Origin: an uncultured Lachnospiraceae bacterium
Lineage (GTDB): Bacteria; Bacillota; Clostridia; Lachnospirales; Lachnospiraceae
Assembly (NCBI GenBank): GCA_949840915.1
Contig: CATKXY010000009.1
Location: 47,701-111,700 of the forward strand
Length of the DNA: 64,000 nucleotides
Direction: 5' to 3'
The translations under genes and the position numbers were made by a program. The notes beneath the pieces are model-generated. The model was not told the origin of the DNA. It did no database searches and worked only from the letters and a program-made list of their open reading frames with translations. The first letter of the stretch is position 1, and each line of letters opens with the position of its first letter. Below, piece by piece: positions 32,271 through 54,179 of this stretch.

Positions 32271-33785
32271 TTAGCCCTTCGGCGTCTCCGCAGGATCCTC
32301 CCCGTAAAACATCACAACAGGAGTACCGATCTCCACGCTGTCATAGAGCTCTTTTGCCACCTCCGGCGGCAGATTCACGCAGCCGTGGGAACCGTTTGTC
32401 TTGTAGATATCCCCGCCAAATTCGCTGCGCCAGTCGGCATCGTGAAGACCGATGGCTCCTTTGACAGGCATCCAGAATTTCACCGGTGTCGCGTATCCCG
32501 GCCCCCGGAGCGTCCGGTTTTTCTGCTTGTTATAGACAAAATTCACGCCCTCCGGCGTACTCATACGTCTGCGGGCATTGCCGCTGACCACATCTGTCTC
32601 CAGTGCAAGCTCACCGTCCACATAATAATACAGCTTCTGCATTCCCAGATCCACTTCGATATAAGTATCCCCGAGATCAGCGCTGCCGCGGTGATAGGCG
32701 TCTCTGGAGTACTCCGGCGTGCGGACCACTCCTCGCCCAGCCGTCTGCCCCTCTTGTTTCTCCCCGTCAAATCCGCTCTCCCAGGCCGCAAGCTGCTCCA
32801 GATACTGCCAGAGCCAGACCGTCTCCCGTTTCTGATTGATGGTAGTTCCGTAAGTCACGCCCTGCACATACACAATATCGCCCCTTGTACTCTGAAAAGC
32901 CCATTCTTTGCCATAGGTATCATGAACGGATGCCATCTCCCGGATCCAGTCCTCGATACGATCAGTCATCAGTACAAAGCGGCCGGCATCGTCCTGTACG
33001 GGAAGCCCTCCCGGCTGCTCCTCTCTTTGTAGAAAGGCCGCCATCTGCGCCGCATCCGGCTTCTCGGCTCCGTCCCCGAAATCATAGACCGGCCCGTTTT
33101 CCTGGAAATAATCTATCCGGCTCCAGATCTGTGCCAGCTGCTCCTGTGCCTCCGTAAACGGCACATCGTAATAGCATCCGGCTTCTATGAGGTTGACGCT
33201 GTCGTGTCCCATGAGGATGGCGCTCCTTGCCGTCTCATAAGCTTTCTTTTCATCCAGCCTGCGATGCAGTCCGTCATAGAGCGTATATCCTGCACTATCG
33301 TCATATTCTATGCGATAATCCTCCTCTTTGCGAAAGCCTTCGGCAATTTTCTCCCAGAATTCCTGCAGCACCATCTCCTCAACGGACACCGCCGCCTCCA
33401 GCCGGTGCTCTCTGCCAGGGAACAGGTTTGCAACCCAGAACCATGAATTCTGTGATGTCAGATATTTGTTTAAACCGGCCTCATAATCCAACGTGCGATG
33501 CAGCGATTCCATGGAGACCGTCCAGCTCGTCTCCGTGGAATCGCTGCCGATTCTGTCATATCCCACTATGGTAAAATTTTCCGGAGCCTTTGTCTGCTCC
33601 AAAAGCTGAGCGTTGACCTCCTGCACGGAGCTCCCTGTACAATATACGCCGTTGATCCATGTGTTGACTGCAAAACCGGTCCTATAATACAGTGCCAGAC
33701 CAAGATAGCCCAGACACAGAAGTATTACAATTATCATGCAGCAAACAGCAGGCCCTCTTGTCCGTTTTTTCATAACCCGTCCCAT
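32271..33785 (-). CDS. Membrane-anchored L,D-transpeptidase (YkuD) with peptidoglycan-binding-like domains
   Basis: About 504 residues. An N-terminal TM anchor (AVCCMIIVILLCLGYLGLALYY) is followed by two PG_binding_4-like regions (~40-300) and a C-terminal YkuD domain. The catalytic motif is SHGCVNLPPE with GLHDADW upstream, as in active enzymes. It cross-links or modifies peptidoglycan by 3-3 bonds outside the membrane. ATG 33785 (MGRVMKK) is preferred over the track's GTG 33791; ATG 33773 is also possible. The start lies within an inverted repeat (33786-33812) that could hide the ribosome binding site. It follows ilvB by ~27 bases. Confidence 0.88.
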   Translation of the reverse strand: MGRVMKKRTRGPAVCCMIIVILLCLGYLGLALYYRTGFAVNTWINGVYCTGSSVQEVNAQLLEQTKAPENFTIVGYDRIGSDSTETSWTVSMESLHRTLDYEAGLNKYLTSQNSWFWVANLFPGREHRLEAAVSVEEMVLQEFWEKIAEGFRKEEDYRIEYDDSAGYTLYDGLHRRLDEKKAYETARSAILMGHDSVNLIEAGCYYDVPFTEAQEQLAQIWSRIDYFQENGPVYDFGDGAEKPDAAQMAAFLQREEQPGGLPVQDDAGRFVLMTDRIEDWIREMASVHDTYGKEWAFQSTRGDIVYVQGVTYGTTINQKRETVWLWQYLEQLAAWESGFDGEKQEGQTAGRGVVRTPEYSRDAYHRGSADLGDTYIEVDLGMQKLYYYVDGELALETDVVSGNARRRMSTPEGVNFVYNKQKNRTLRGPGYATPVKFWMPVKGAIGLHDADWRSEFGGDIYKTNGSHGCVNLPPEVAKELYDSVEIGTPVVMFYGEDPAETPKG

Positions 33786-33812
33786 GCGCACACATCCTGT
33801 TCCTATGTGCGC
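33786..33812 (-). repeat. 7-bp inverted repeat at the ilvB/ldt junction
   Basis: GCGCACA (33786-33792) and TGTGCGC (33806-33812) surround a 13-base loop and abut both the ilvB stop and the transpeptidase start. No U-tract follows, so it is more likely to affect translation or mRNA stability than termination. Confidence 0.45.
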
Positions 33813-49012: not shown

Positions 49013-50086
49013 TTAAGCTCTTCTGGTGCTGCCCAGCCTGTGGAATGCAATGCAGTTAGGCACATCCACCTTGATGGGCGGCCCGTTCATGATCATATTG
49101 CCCGCCTCCAGATTCAGATGGAAAAAGGTCATGTCATTGCTCTCATGGTTCAGAGATACAAGAAATTTGTCATTCGGGAAAAACTCTGCGTCCTTGGGAT
49201 ACTCTCCGCCCACGGGCAGACAGAATTTCTGTGTCAGGAACCCGGTCTCGGTGTTCACCGCAAAAACCACCACGGAATTATCCCCCGCATTGGAGGAGAG
49301 CATATATTTATAATCCCCGGAAAAACTCAGTGCGCTGGCAGCGTTGGTGCTGCCACGCTCGGGCTTCACTGTCCGGATCGTCTGGATCTTTTCAAACACC
49401 GGCATTCCGTTTTTGTCCTCATAGGAATACACGTCAATACAGCAGCTCCATTCATGCACAACATAGATAAAACGCCCGTCCAGAGAAATCTTGATGTGTC
49501 TGGGGGCGGAATCCAGCTCGCTGTGCAGGATATCTGCCAGCTGCACCTTCCCCCACTCCAGATTCATGCGGTAGATTTTCACATGATCCATACCCGGATC
49601 GGCTACCAGAAGATATTTATTGTCATGGGTCATGCGGGCACAGTTGATGTGGGGGCGGGAATTGCGCTCCGCAATGCTGCCCAGTCCCTTGTGGAACACC
49701 TCGTCCGTGATCTCACCGACGGAACCGTCCTCCTGCAGCTTTAACACGGTGAGCTTGCCGTCATGGTAACCCGCCACAAACAGATAGCTGTCCGTGTAAT
49801 CCGTGGACACATAGCAGCCCCTCATACCGTTGATGGGAGCGAAATTTATGATCTCCAGATTGCCGTCCGGCAGAATATTATAGGACTCCACTCCGAAATC
49901 CGTGATGGAATACAGGTACTGGCAATTGTGCGAGATTGTGAGGTAGGAAGAATTGGTGATCTCCACCTTACTCTTCTCCTTAAAACGTCCCCTCTCCATA
50001 TCCACATCATATATCTTGATCCCATGGCTGTCTCCCTGGGTGTAAGTCGACACATATGCCACATATTTTTCTTTCGCCTTTGCCAT
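49013..50086 (-). CDS. Lactonase family seven-bladed beta-propeller (6-phosphogluconolactonase-like)
   Basis: A 357-residue cytoplasmic protein without a signal peptide. The blades carry the family pattern: YLTISHNCQYLYSI, RPHINCARMTHDNKYLLVADPGMDHVKIY, PRHIKISLDGRFIYVVHEWSCCIDVYSY and KDAEFFPNDKFLVSLNHESN, as in PF10282. Members include a 6-phosphogluconolactonase and many of unknown substrate, so the exact reaction is unproved. AAAGGAGG precedes ATG 50086, with an extended -10 promoter ~60 bases upstream. Confidence 0.85.
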   Translation of the reverse strand: MAKAKEKYVAYVSTYTQGDSHGIKIYDVDMERGRFKEKSKVEITNSSYLTISHNCQYLYSITDFGVESYNILPDGNLEIINFAPINGMRGCYVSTDYTDSYLFVAGYHDGKLTVLKLQEDGSVGEITDEVFHKGLGSIAERNSRPHINCARMTHDNKYLLVADPGMDHVKIYRMNLEWGKVQLADILHSELDSAPRHIKISLDGRFIYVVHEWSCCIDVYSYEDKNGMPVFEKIQTIRTVKPERGSTNAASALSFSGDYKYMLSSNAGDNSVVVFAVNTETGFLTQKFCLPVGGEYPKDAEFFPNDKFLVSLNHESNDMTFFHLNLEAGNMIMNGPPIKVDVPNCIAFHRLGSTRRA

Positions 50087-50136
50087 AATAAACCCTCCTT
50101 TAAAGCTCTGCCCAAGCCGTGTTTTTGCTCCTTAAC

Positions 50137-50165
50137 AATATAGCACAATCCCCTTTCTTTTTGAA
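50137..50165 (-). promoter_or_regulatory. Promoter of the lactonase-like gene
   Basis: Minus strand TTCAAA, 17 bases, TATATT, with TGC before the -10 (extended type). Confidence 0.6.
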
Positions 50166-50198
50166 TACCTTTTCCAAAAAATTATTTGTGCAAAATTA

Positions 50199-50227
50199 TT
50201 GACATTCCCCGCGTTTTTCGATATTAT
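50199..50227 (+). promoter_or_regulatory. Strong sigma-A promoter of potABCD
   Basis: TTGACA, exactly 17 bases, TATTAT. It gives a leader of ~125 bases containing the 22-bp inverted repeat at 50288-50335. Confidence 0.75.
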
Positions 50228-50287
50228 TATCGTAATTTGTGCATAGGCAGCATCAAAACATGTATGAACATATACACAGATATAAAA

Positions 50288-50335
50288 AAATATACAGTAC
50301 ATGTCATATACTGATATGGCATGTACTGTATATTT
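50288..50335 (+). promoter_or_regulatory. 22-bp inverted repeat in the potABCD leader
   Basis: AAATATACAGTACATGTCATAT and ATATGGCATGTACTGTATATTT are inverse copies with a single G-U pair in RNA, around a 4-base loop. The right arm ends ~8 bases before the potA ribosome binding site region. No U-tract follows, so it is not a plain terminator. A long RNA stem or a large operator are both possible. Confidence 0.85.
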
Positions 50336-50360
50336 CAATATACGGGAAGGAACTGCGAGA

Positions 50361-51434
50361 ATGAAAAATGCTTTGGTGAATCTGGAGGGCATCACAAAAT
50401 CCTTTGACGGCCAGATGATTCTGGACGATTTAAACCTCTATATTAAGGAGAATGAATTTCTGACGCTCTTAGGTCCCAGCGGCTGTGGCAAGACAACCAC
50501 TCTGCGTATTTTGGGAGGATTTGAAAAGCCCGACAAGGGACATGTGATCTTTGAGGGTCAGGATATCACAAATCTTCCGCCAAATAAGCGCAATCTCAAC
50601 ACCGTATTCCAAAAGTACGCTCTATTTACACATATGGACATCGCGGAGAATATCGCCTTCGGCCTGAAGATCAAAAACAAGTCCAAGGCCTATATAAACG
50701 ACAAGATCCGGTACGCCTTAAAGCTGGTCAATCTCGACGGCTATGAGCACCGCATGCCGGACTCTTTGAGCGGCGGCCAGCAGCAGCGTATCGCCATCGC
50801 CCGGGCCATCGTGAACGAGCCTAAGCTCCTGCTTCTGGACGAGCCTTTGGGCGCTCTGGACCTGAAGCTCCGTCAGGACATGCAGTATGAGCTGATCCGC
50901 CTGAAAAACGAGCTGGGCATCACCTTCATCTATGTGACTCACGATCAGGAGGAGGCCCTCACCATGTCCGACACAGTGGTGGTCATGAACCAGGGCTATA
51001 TTCAGCAGATCGGTACCCCCGAGAATGTCTATAACGAACCGGAAAACGCTTTTGTGGCGGACTTTATCGGCGACAGCAATATCATCGGCGCCACCATGAT
51101 ACAGGATCGCCTGGTAGAGATTCTGGGCGCGCGCTTTGCCTGTGTGGACGAAGGCTTCGGGGAAAACAAGCCCGTGGATGTAGTCATCCGTCCCGAGGAT
51201 GTGGAACTGGTCTCACCCGATGAGGGCGTGATAAACGGAACAGTCACCCATCTGATCTTTAAGGGCGTCCACTATGAGATGGAAGTCATGGCAAACGGTT
51301 TTGAATGGCTGGTACAGTCCACCCGCATGCAGCCTGTGGGAACCCAAGTGGGAATCCGGGTGGCTCCCTTCAACATTCAGATTATGAACAAACCCGAATC
51401 CGAGGACGAGGAGGCCGTGGGTGTCAATGAATAG
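50361..51434 (+). CDS. potA: Spermidine/putrescine ABC transporter ATPase
   Basis: Start ATG 50361 ([15 protein letters not shown]) after GGGAAGGAA; 357 residues. Walker A is [12 protein letters not shown], the signature [15 protein letters not shown], Walker [13 protein letters not shown]; the C-terminal ~110 residues form the TOBE domain ([11 protein letters not shown]). It energises polyamine import with the next three genes. The stop overlaps the potB start by 14 bases. Confidence 0.95.
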
Positions 51435-52239
51435 AAAACTTTTATCCGCACCGTATCTGTTCTGGTCGGCCCTCTTTATTCTGGTGCCGCTGTGTATGGT
51501 ATTTTACTACGGACTCACCGACAAGACAGGCGCATTCACTCTGGAAAATATCCTGGCCATCGCCACACCCGAGCACTCCAAAGCTCTGTGGGAAGCATTG
51601 AAGCTGGCGTTTGTCAGCACGGTCATCTGCCTGCTCCTGGCCTATCCGCTGGCCATGATCCTGTGCGGCATGAATTCCCACAAGGATTCTTTCATCGTGC
51701 TGATCTTTATACTGCCTATGTGGATGAATTTTCTGCTGCGCACCATGGCCTGGCAGTCTCTTTTAGAGAAAACCGGGGTCATCAACGGAATTCTGGGCTT
51801 TCTGCATCTGCCCTCCCTGAATATCATCAACACACCCGCCGCCATTGTTCTGGGTATGGTCTACAATTTCCTGCCGTTCATGGTACTGCCCATTTACAAT
51901 GTGCTGGTCAAGATTGATAAAAACATAGTAAATGCCGCCAGAGACCTGGGAGCCAATCCCTTTCAGACCTTTCTGAAGATTCTGTTGCCTTTAAGTCTCC
52001 CCGGCATTTTCAGCGGCATTACCATGGTGTTTGTCCCCGCCCTCACCACCTTTGTAATCTCGAGAGTCCTGGGCGGCGGCAAGATCCTTCTGATCGGCAA
52101 TATCATCGAGGAGGAATTCACCAAGACCGACAACTGGAATCTGGGAAGCGGTCTCTCTATCGTACTGATGCTCTTTATCATATTTAATATGGTCATCTCT
52201 GCCGTGACCGATAAAGACGGGGAGGTGAATGCCCTGTGA
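51421..52239 (+). CDS. potB: Spermidine/putrescine ABC transporter permease PotB
   Basis: 272 residues from GTG 51421; ATG 51427 is the alternative, but GAGGAGG is best spaced for the GTG. Six membrane segments start with [20 protein letters not shown]. The EAA loop reads [26 protein letters not shown]. It pairs with PotC as the channel. Both ends overlap neighbouring genes (GTGA with potC). Confidence 0.93.
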
Positions 52240-53024
52240 GCAGACTTTACGGCGCTGTCAGAAAATTTTATATTGCGCTGATCTTTCTTTTTTTGTACGC
52301 CCCCATCGCGACGCTGATCGTACTCTCCTTCAACGCCAGCAAGACCCGGGCGAAATGGGGCGGCTTCACACTGAAATGGTATCAGAGCCTCTTTGGGAAT
52401 GACATTATCCTGCAGGCCTTGTGGAACACATTGGCCATCGCGTTCCTCTCCGCTCTCATTGCGACCGTCATAGGAACCGTGGCCTGTATCTCCATGCAGA
52501 ATATGCGCAGGAGCACCCGCTCCCTGATCATGGGAGTCACCAACATCCCCATGCTGAACGCGGATATCGTTACCGGCATCTCCCTGATGCTGTTATTTAT
52601 CAGTATAGGCATCCGGTTCGGATTCGGAACCATACTGCTTGCGCACATCACCTTCAATATCCCCTATGTGATTCTGAGCGTGATGCCCCGCATGAAACAG
52701 CTTAATCCCAGCACCTACGAAGCGGCGCTGGATCTGGGAGCCTCCCACATTCAGGCCTTCTTCAAGGTGGTGTTCCCGGATATCCTGCCCGGGATCTTCT
52801 CGGGCTTCCTGATGGCTTTCACCATGTCCCTGGATGACTTTATCATCACGCACTTCACCAAGGGACCGGGCATCGACACGCTGTCCACCAAGATTTACAC
52901 GGAAGTAAAAAAGGGAATCAAGCCGGAAATGTATGCCCTTTCCACCATTATCTTCGTCTCGGTTCTGATCCTGCTGCTTTTGATCAATTACACCCCGCGG
53001 GCGGGGCATAAAAAGGCCCGCTGA
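52236..53024 (+). CDS. potC: Spermidine/putrescine ABC transporter permease PotC
   Basis: 262 residues from GTG 52236, overlapping the potB stop as GTGA. Six membrane segments (FYIALIFLFLYAPIATLIVLSF first) and the EAA loop EAALDLGASHIQAFFKVVFPDILPGI. FTMSLDDFIITHFTKGPG near the end is typical of PotC. Confidence 0.94.
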   Translation: MSRLYGAVRKFYIALIFLFLYAPIATLIVLSFNASKTRAKWGGFTLKWYQSLFGNDIILQALWNTLAIAFLSALIATVIGTVACISMQNMRRSTRSLIMGVTNIPMLNADIVTGISLMLLFISIGIRFGFGTILLAHITFNIPYVILSVMPRMKQLNPSTYEAALDLGASHIQAFFKVVFPDILPGIFSGFLMAFTMSLDDFIITHFTKGPGIDTLSTKIYTEVKKGIKPEMYALSTIIFVSVLILLLLINYTPRAGHKKAR

Positions 53025-53049
53025 AAAGACTCGAAAGGATGAATCAACT

Positions 53050-54135
53050 ATGAAAAAAATATCGGGAAAAACAACTAAACGAATCGCTCTGGCGCTGGGT
53101 GCAGCTCTTGCCTGCGCCGCTCTGGCGGGCTGCGGCTCACCCTCCTCCGCCGGAAAAAACGGCGAACTGTATGTCTACAACTGGGGCGAGTACATCGATC
53201 CCGACACTCTGACTATGTTCGAGGAGGAGACCGGGATTAAGGTGATCTATGATGAATATGACACCAATGAGACCATGTATCCGAAGGTGGCGGCCGGCGC
53301 CTCTGTCTATGACGTGATCTGCCCTTCCGATTATATGGTCAACAAGATGATCGACAATGATCTGCTTCAGGAGTTGAACTTTGACAACATGCCCAATGCT
53401 CTCTCCAATATCGGCGCTTCCTACTATGATACCGCCGAGGAATTTGACCCCGGCAACAAATACTTTGTACCCTACTGCTGGGGAACCGTGGGGATCCTCT
53501 ACAATACCTCCATGGTGGATGAGCCCGTCACAAGCTGGTCTATCCTGTGGAATGAAAAATACAAGGATAATATTCTCATGCAGGACTCCGTGCGGGACGC
53601 TTTCATGGTAGCCCTGAAGCTGAACGGCAGCTCCATGAACACCCTGGATGTCAACGAGCTGGAGGCCGCCAGAGACGCTCTGATCGAACAGCGCCCTCTG
53701 GTGCAGGCATGGGTAATCGATGAGGTGCGGGACAAGATGATCGGCGGCGAAGCCGCCCTGGGCGTCATCTACTCCGGCGAGGCAATCTATACCCAGCGGG
53801 AAAACTCCGATCTGGAATATGTGATCCCCCAGGAGGGAACCAATGTGTGGCTTGACGGCTGGGTAATCCCGAAAAATGCCGCCAATAAAGAAAATGCGGA
53901 GAAATTCATTGATTTTATGTGCCGCGGAGATATCGCGCTGATGAACTTTGAGTACATCACCTACTCCACCCCCAATACTGCCGCCCAGGCTCTGATCAAG
54001 GACGAGGATATCAGAAATTCCGAGATTGCCTTCCCCGATCTGTCTCAATATAACAATCTGGAAACCTTTACCTATCTGGGTGAGGAAGGCGATGAGCTGT
54101 ACAATCAATACTGGAAGGAAGCGCGTTCCCAATAA
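53050..54135 (+). CDS. potD: Spermidine/putrescine-binding lipoprotein PotD
   Basis: A 361-residue lipoprotein: basic start, hydrophobic LALGAALACAALAGC-G lipobox. The mature protein opens LYVYNWGEYIDPDTLTMFEEETGIKV, the PotD hallmark, and includes YDVICPSDYMV and PYCWGTVGILYN. It captures spermidine or putrescine outside the cell and delivers it to PotBC. GAAAGGATG is upstream of ATG 53050. A perfect terminator follows. Confidence 0.95.
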   Translation: MKKISGKTTKRIALALGAALACAALAGCGSPSSAGKNGELYVYNWGEYIDPDTLTMFEEETGIKVIYDEYDTNETMYPKVAAGASVYDVICPSDYMVNKMIDNDLLQELNFDNMPNALSNIGASYYDTAEEFDPGNKYFVPYCWGTVGILYNTSMVDEPVTSWSILWNEKYKDNILMQDSVRDAFMVALKLNGSSMNTLDVNELEAARDALIEQRPLVQAWVIDEVRDKMIGGEAALGVIYSGEAIYTQRENSDLEYVIPQEGTNVWLDGWVIPKNAANKENAEKFIDFMCRGDIALMNFEYITYSTPNTAAQALIKDEDIRNSEIAFPDLSQYNNLETFTYLGEEGDELYNQYWKEARSQ

Positions 54136-54147
54136 TATCATCTAATC

Positions 54148-54179
54148 AAAAAGAGCAGGCCGAACAACCTGCTCTTTTT
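54148..54179 (+). terminator. Rho-independent terminator of potABCD
   Basis: AAAAAGAGCAGG, 8-base loop, CCTGCTCTTTTT: a perfect 12-bp stem with a built-in U-tract, 13 bases after the potD stop. The A-tract makes it able to work for the minus-strand Cys-rich gene as well. Confidence 0.92.

Follow-up and report, generated by a model that had tools for sequence, protein, structure and literature searches.

The leader of the potABCD mRNA in an uncultured Lachnospiraceae bacterium contains a hairpin that is a real, unusual, and lineage-specific element. It occupies positions 50288-50335 of the window (the entire stretch of 64,000 nucleotides that we analyzed). Our best explanation, which we hold tentatively, is that an inverted duplication arose recently in one lineage, was kept by selection, and acts as a stem in the leader of the mRNA.

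A long hairpin ahead of potA

The first-pass annotation described an inverted repeat with 22-bp arms, one G-U pair, and a 4-base loop, and both pairing and folding bear this out. The arms and the loop (Table 1) follow each other directly, in the order left arm-ACTG-right arm, and the G-U pair joins T50304 to G50319. The annotation also placed the repeat between the transcription start and the ribosome-binding site of potA, which agrees with our analysis: behind a promoter that looks strong, the stem begins about 55 nt downstream of the predicted start and ends 10 nt upstream of the ribosome-binding site.

The 132-nt leader has a predicted folding energy of -38.1 kcal/mol, versus a mean of -20.0 kcal/mol for shuffled sequences (z = -6.5); no dinucleotide shuffle among 200 folded as stably. 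The leader has one dominant stem, on which the MFE and centroid structures agree. By itself, the stem has a folding energy of -28.0 kcal/mol in the window and -26.3 kcal/mol in the sister species (genome G116). Its inverted-repeat score is 21.5, while the maximum in 300 shuffles of the local 350 bp was 12.5. Among 464 kb of this genome, which we sampled in stretches, this is the strongest hairpin.

Table 1. Features of the potABCD leader and its surroundings, in window coordinates.
Feature	Position	Strand	Basis
Left arm, AAATATACAGTACATGTCATAT	50288..50309	+	inverted-repeat and fold analysis
Loop, ACTG	50310..50313	+	inverted-repeat and fold analysis
Right arm, ATATGGCATGTACTGTATATTT	50314..50335	+	inverted-repeat and fold analysis
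Run of seven A (U-tract for the stem on the - strand)	50284..50290	+	direct reading; identical in the sister species
Predicted sigma-A promoter of potABCD, TTGACA-17-TATTAT	50199..50227	+	11/12 consensus positions
Predicted 5' leader of the potABCD mRNA	50234..50360	+	promoter position and potA start
potA ribosome-binding site, GGAAGGA	50346..50352	+	direct reading
potA, ABC ATPase with TOBE_2 domain	50361..51434	+	Pfam PF00005, PF08402; ATG 50361 start common to relatives
potB, potC, potD	51421..54135	+	Pfam PF00528 twice and PF13416
Divergent gene, 7-bladed beta-propeller lactonase family	49013..50086	-	Pfam PF10282

Comparison of related loci places the window genome (G000) in a Lachnospiraceae lineage near MAGs that are labelled Acetatifactor. 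The three nearest relatives are G116 (loci L153/L033), G105 (L154/L034), and G063 (L155/L124). Gene order and promoter are preserved in all three, and the divergent arrangement of the lactonase gene and potA is identical in L153, L154, and L155. The leader itself ranges from 36 to 135 nt among relatives, and its sequence is strongly variable too.

We noticed two other elements in the window. Between the divergent promoters, at 50158-50182, there is a block in which 20 bp are unchanged between the two species, around TTTTTGAATACCTTTTCCAAAAA. This is possibly the promoter of the lactonase gene or a shared control site. At 33500-33547, within a long - strand ORF (32271-33791), is another inverted repeat with 19-nt arms (95% matched) and a 10-nt loop.

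The hairpin is confined to two sister species

We compared 114 distinct potA leaders, including 95 from loci whose PotA is at least 80% identical. The hairpin is present in just two of them, from the window and from the sister species G116; the runner-up is an unrelated inverted repeat with a score of 13. The closest relatives after G116, with PotA 97% and 95% identical, share the gene order and have the potABCD promoter ahead of leaders that are hairpin-free. The first-pass annotation had proposed a search of related potA leaders for covarying stems and had said that a lack of conservation or covariation in close relatives would refute its reading; for the polyamine option, this is the outcome. 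With two carriers only, there was no covariation or compensatory change in the stem among the 114 leaders.

When we searched the DNA of 138 genomes from the genus, we found the hairpin in G000 and G116 only, as a single copy in each. There were no further copies in 397 genomes sampled from the family, and no match in the phages and viral contigs that we searched. Among plasmids, the sole match was of 23 nt in a haloarchaeon (E = 0.05). Allowing up to 3 mismatches, the pattern of the arms had one chance-level match elsewhere in each of G000 and G116, as many as a control pattern had. Because these searches found only two carriers, each with a single copy, the hairpin is not a widespread pot leader element, a repeat family, or a regulon site.

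Several other identities for the hairpin were considered and rejected. A mobile or repeated palindromic element (of the REP or MITE type) does not fit with a single copy in G000 and G116 and none elsewhere in the searched genomes. ATATAC occurs as a direct repeat around the hairpin (50270-50275 and 50338-50343), which might be mistaken for a target duplication, but ATATAC is also found inside the left arm, and there is no other copy of the element. A search of 49900-50700 against Rfam, with E values up to 10, gave no riboswitch match. The matches that it did give were at chance level and mostly to models of eukaryotic microRNAs, which score any plain long hairpin; a sub-threshold match to potC RNA lies outside the stem and was rejected as well. 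Finally, the stem might be coding, either because the potA frame is open upstream to an ATG at 50301 or as part of a 34-codon ORF (50261-50364) that runs through the stem and whose TGA overlaps the ATG of potA. Neither has a ribosome-binding site, and both are absent from the hairpin-free relatives. The length of the 34-codon ORF is kept in the sister species, and the upstream opening of the potA frame is also found in both species.

Origin of the hairpin

A tree of the lactonase gene, potA, and potB fully supports the separation of the window and G116 from the group of G105 and G063, as well as from all other members. Because the tree separates the two carriers from the rest, a single gain on the branch that leads to them is the simplest history.

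The leader of L124 (G063) can be aligned with the window leader to the left and to the right of the stem (TATACACAG ... TATACGGGAAGGAA). When gaps are allowed, the best alignment shows that L124 lacks a 33-bp stretch that corresponds to the left arm and most of the loop. The right arm has weak similarity to the L124 leader and is possibly the older arm. The leader in G105 is short, and the whole hairpin region is absent.

Template switching can make perfect stems in one event (PMC8794818). An inverted duplication of this type, in the common ancestor of the two sister species, would have formed the stem without stepwise changes in pairing, and a template switch that copied the right arm backwards would leave the gap of left arm plus most of the loop that we see relative to L124. 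Because the right arm bears just a weak resemblance to L124 (p about 0.09), we only infer that the hairpin probably arose in this way.

Probable selection on the hairpin

In aroC, the lactonase gene, potA, and potB, the window and G116 differ at 211 of 605 four-fold sites (35%). Across the hairpin, just 1 of 48 bases differs (P = 3 · 10^-8 for 1 or fewer at the four-fold rate). In the aligned local region, the only noncoding 48-bp windows with at most one difference lie over the hairpin. Relative to the immediate flanks in the leader, where 8 of 74 bases (11%) are substituted, the contrast is borderline (one-sided p = 0.07), since conservation is fairly high throughout the promoter and leader.

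A functionless leftover of template switching, or of some small insertion, might also be confined to one lineage, and it would fit with leaders that vary freely across the genus and with local flanks that are themselves fairly conserved. We consider this rather improbable, since the hairpin has diverged by 2% versus 35% at four-fold sites. If one arm had corrected the other, this would not have slowed the divergence between species and so should not account for the low value. The strong conservation between the two carrier species supports some function: judging from these comparisons, the hairpin is probably under selection and not junk.

The sole change is from T to G at 50304, which converts the G-U pair to G.G and breaks it. 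If pairing alone were constrained, with transitions at a rate of 17%, we would expect about 3-4 pair-preserving transitions in the 21 Watson-Crick pairs, and we saw none (p about 0.02). Because there is no pair-preserving change, the sequence may be constrained as well as the pairing, a pattern that fits an operator at least as well as an RNA stem.

How the hairpin might act

If the hairpin acts as RNA, which we hold to be the most likely case, it would be a 22-bp double-stranded element in the mRNA, just upstream of the ribosome-binding site. RNase III could cut the stem and leave a short leader with an open ribosome-binding site. Alternatively, the stem could be a barrier to a 5' exonuclease and so set the stability of the mRNA. 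Either way, the basal level of the importer would be tuned. RNase III is encoded in both G000 and G116 (TIGR02191, above the cut-off). The closest known parallel is the leader of cspA in S. aureus, in which a 32-bp helix with almost perfect pairing precedes the ribosome-binding site; cutting by RNase III makes this mRNA more stable and better translated (PMC3386247). We infer the action as RNA, and RNase III or another RNase as the partner.

Stable hairpins just upstream of a ribosome-binding site can also hinder initiation (PMC3386247). Direct occlusion of the potA ribosome-binding site by the stem is unlikely, because the site is predicted to be unpaired and accessible with or without the hairpin. 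This predicted accessibility regardless of the stem also weighs against the reading as an RNA stem more broadly, as do the facts that only two genomes carry it and that the sole change breaks a pair.

The main rival is that the palindrome is a DNA operator at which a repressor, as a dimer or a tetramer, binds some 55-100 bp past the start and acts as a roadblock. We view this as a realistic though unlikely alternative. The apparent constraint on sequence, with no pair-preserving changes, is in its favor, and this genome has at least one other long inverted repeat at a promoter, with 19-bp arms, immediately ahead of a gene that reads as a BlaI/MecI-like repressor. Also, in many more distant relatives, a gene for an XRE-cupin regulator lies directly upstream of potA; it has no close counterpart in G000, G116, G105, or G063 (completeness is 85% for G000 and 99% for G116), so some other control would be needed. 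By the same token, the XRE-cupin regulator itself was ruled out as the protein that binds the hairpin. Against an operator, neither genome has a second copy of the arms or a site at any regulator's own promoter; 22 matched bases per arm far exceed what a dimer requires; the arms are not themselves palindromic; and relatives keep the promoter but not the palindrome. The sequence data are compatible with both an RNase target and an operator, the two other options that the first-pass annotation raised.

The repeat ahead of the BlaI/MecI-like gene (locus L164, 12919-12966, on contig C2 of G000) lies between a TTGACA box and the gene, and each of its arms is symmetric (GTCTA...TAGAC). It is probably a double operator, judging by this arrangement.

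The hairpin might instead affect transcription. The first-pass annotation reported that there was no U-tract, which holds for the + strand: the base of the stem is AT-rich, and the inner stem is followed by ATATTTCAAT, which is a poor U-tract. It does not hold for the - strand, where the same stem is followed by seven T.

One possibility is a weak attenuator, in which the inner stem and then UAUAUUUC cause partial termination ahead of potA. Of the 8 nucleotides after the inner stem (-20 kcal/mol), 5 are T, and the stem weakly passed a laxer test for terminators. Furthermore, 7 of 25 promoter-borne potA leaders have terminator-like hairpins, notably L126, L127, and L012, versus about 2 expected from shuffles. 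Yet the U-tract on the + strand is poor, and worse than that on the - strand, and the base of the stem is A-U-rich; there is no alternative antiterminator fold, and a standard scan for terminators made no call. Overall, we think that attenuation is quite improbable.

The seven T on the - strand raise the prospect of a terminator for antisense transcription that shields the divergent lactonase promoter. This seems the least probable of all the readings: there is already a bidirectional terminator-like hairpin after potD (54150-54179), there is no known - strand promoter inside potA, and the stem is not conserved.

Other potA leaders in the genus have hairpins of their own. Those of L126, L127, and L012, which are from other species, share a stem (TCTCCATG ... 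CATGGGGA, enclosing CTGCC/GGCAG) that is followed by a U-tract and lies between the promoter and potA. This stem has no match in Rfam at gathering scores, and with its variable inner part it is a candidate for attenuating potABCD in a different lineage. The leader of L136, at the end of a contig, has a terminator-like hairpin (GCAGTATGCATAAGATGCATACTGCTTTTTT) just upstream of potA.

Polyamines

The first-pass annotation raised the idea of a polyamine-responsive RNA element by which the importer would regulate itself. Such an element might be riboswitch-like or work through an effect on binding of double-stranded RNA. In its favor, the operon behind this leader encodes a polyamine importer, and in Borrelia, spermidine lowers the mRNA of potA and potB, partly after initiation (PMC10319736). 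However, the stem is missing from every other potA leader that we examined beyond that of one sister species, so it is neither conserved nor covarying. As a simple stem closed by four loop bases, it provides no aptamer, and it does not match any riboswitch in Rfam. In Borrelia, the spermidine-dependent loss of pot mRNA involves the coding sequence of potB and no leader stem (PMC10319736). The sole well-supported class of spermidine riboswitch is a variant of SAM-I with a terminator platform, ahead of biosynthesis genes, and the authors of that study were not convinced by what had earlier been put forward for riboswitches that sense polyamines (PMC10853860). We therefore consider a polyamine-responsive RNA to be very unlikely. 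That sister species lack the stem argues against a role in core self-regulation of this importer.

If polyamines stabilise its A-U-rich helix, the new stem could in principle have been recruited in this lineage as a double-stranded RNA switch, at which RNase III or a double-stranded-RNA-binding protein acts in a polyamine-dependent way, so that the importer regulates itself without an aptamer. We give this little credence, even less than a polyamine-responsive RNA in general. On present evidence, there is no tie between the hairpin and polyamine sensing.

Comparison with known systems

A functional hairpin would be a clear example from nature of a long regulatory stem gained on a single branch. 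The orthologous promoter and operon in sister species without the stem allow a direct comparison, with and without it, of its effect on expression of the importer.

Like the spermidine riboswitch, the hairpin lies in the leader RNA of a polyamine-related operon. The riboswitch has a multi-helix SAM-I aptamer and a terminator and precedes biosynthesis genes, and the potA leader has neither a SAM-I-like multi-helix aptamer nor an intrinsic terminator with an alternative fold. The double operator of the BlaI/MecI type at L164 is also a long inverted repeat between a promoter and a gene, but each of its arms is operator-like and it precedes its own repressor gene; neither holds for the palindrome ahead of potA. 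Inverted repeats that were born by template switching resemble the hairpin in that a near-perfect stem appears at once on one branch and a related leader lacks one arm and most of the loop, although in the present case the ancestral sequence is only weakly recoverable.

The hairpin shares with the cspA leader of S. aureus a long, nearly perfect helix that precedes the ribosome-binding site in the 5' leader, in a genome that encodes RNase III. The cspA helix is longer (32 bp versus 22 bp), is nearer to the 5' end, and is conserved across its genus, and its cleavage has been shown, whereas the potA hairpin is found in only two species and is a putative RNase III substrate. Overall, the hairpin is a new instance of an already known type of element, which is probably under selection and whose mechanism lies among actions as RNA, as DNA, or as a terminator.
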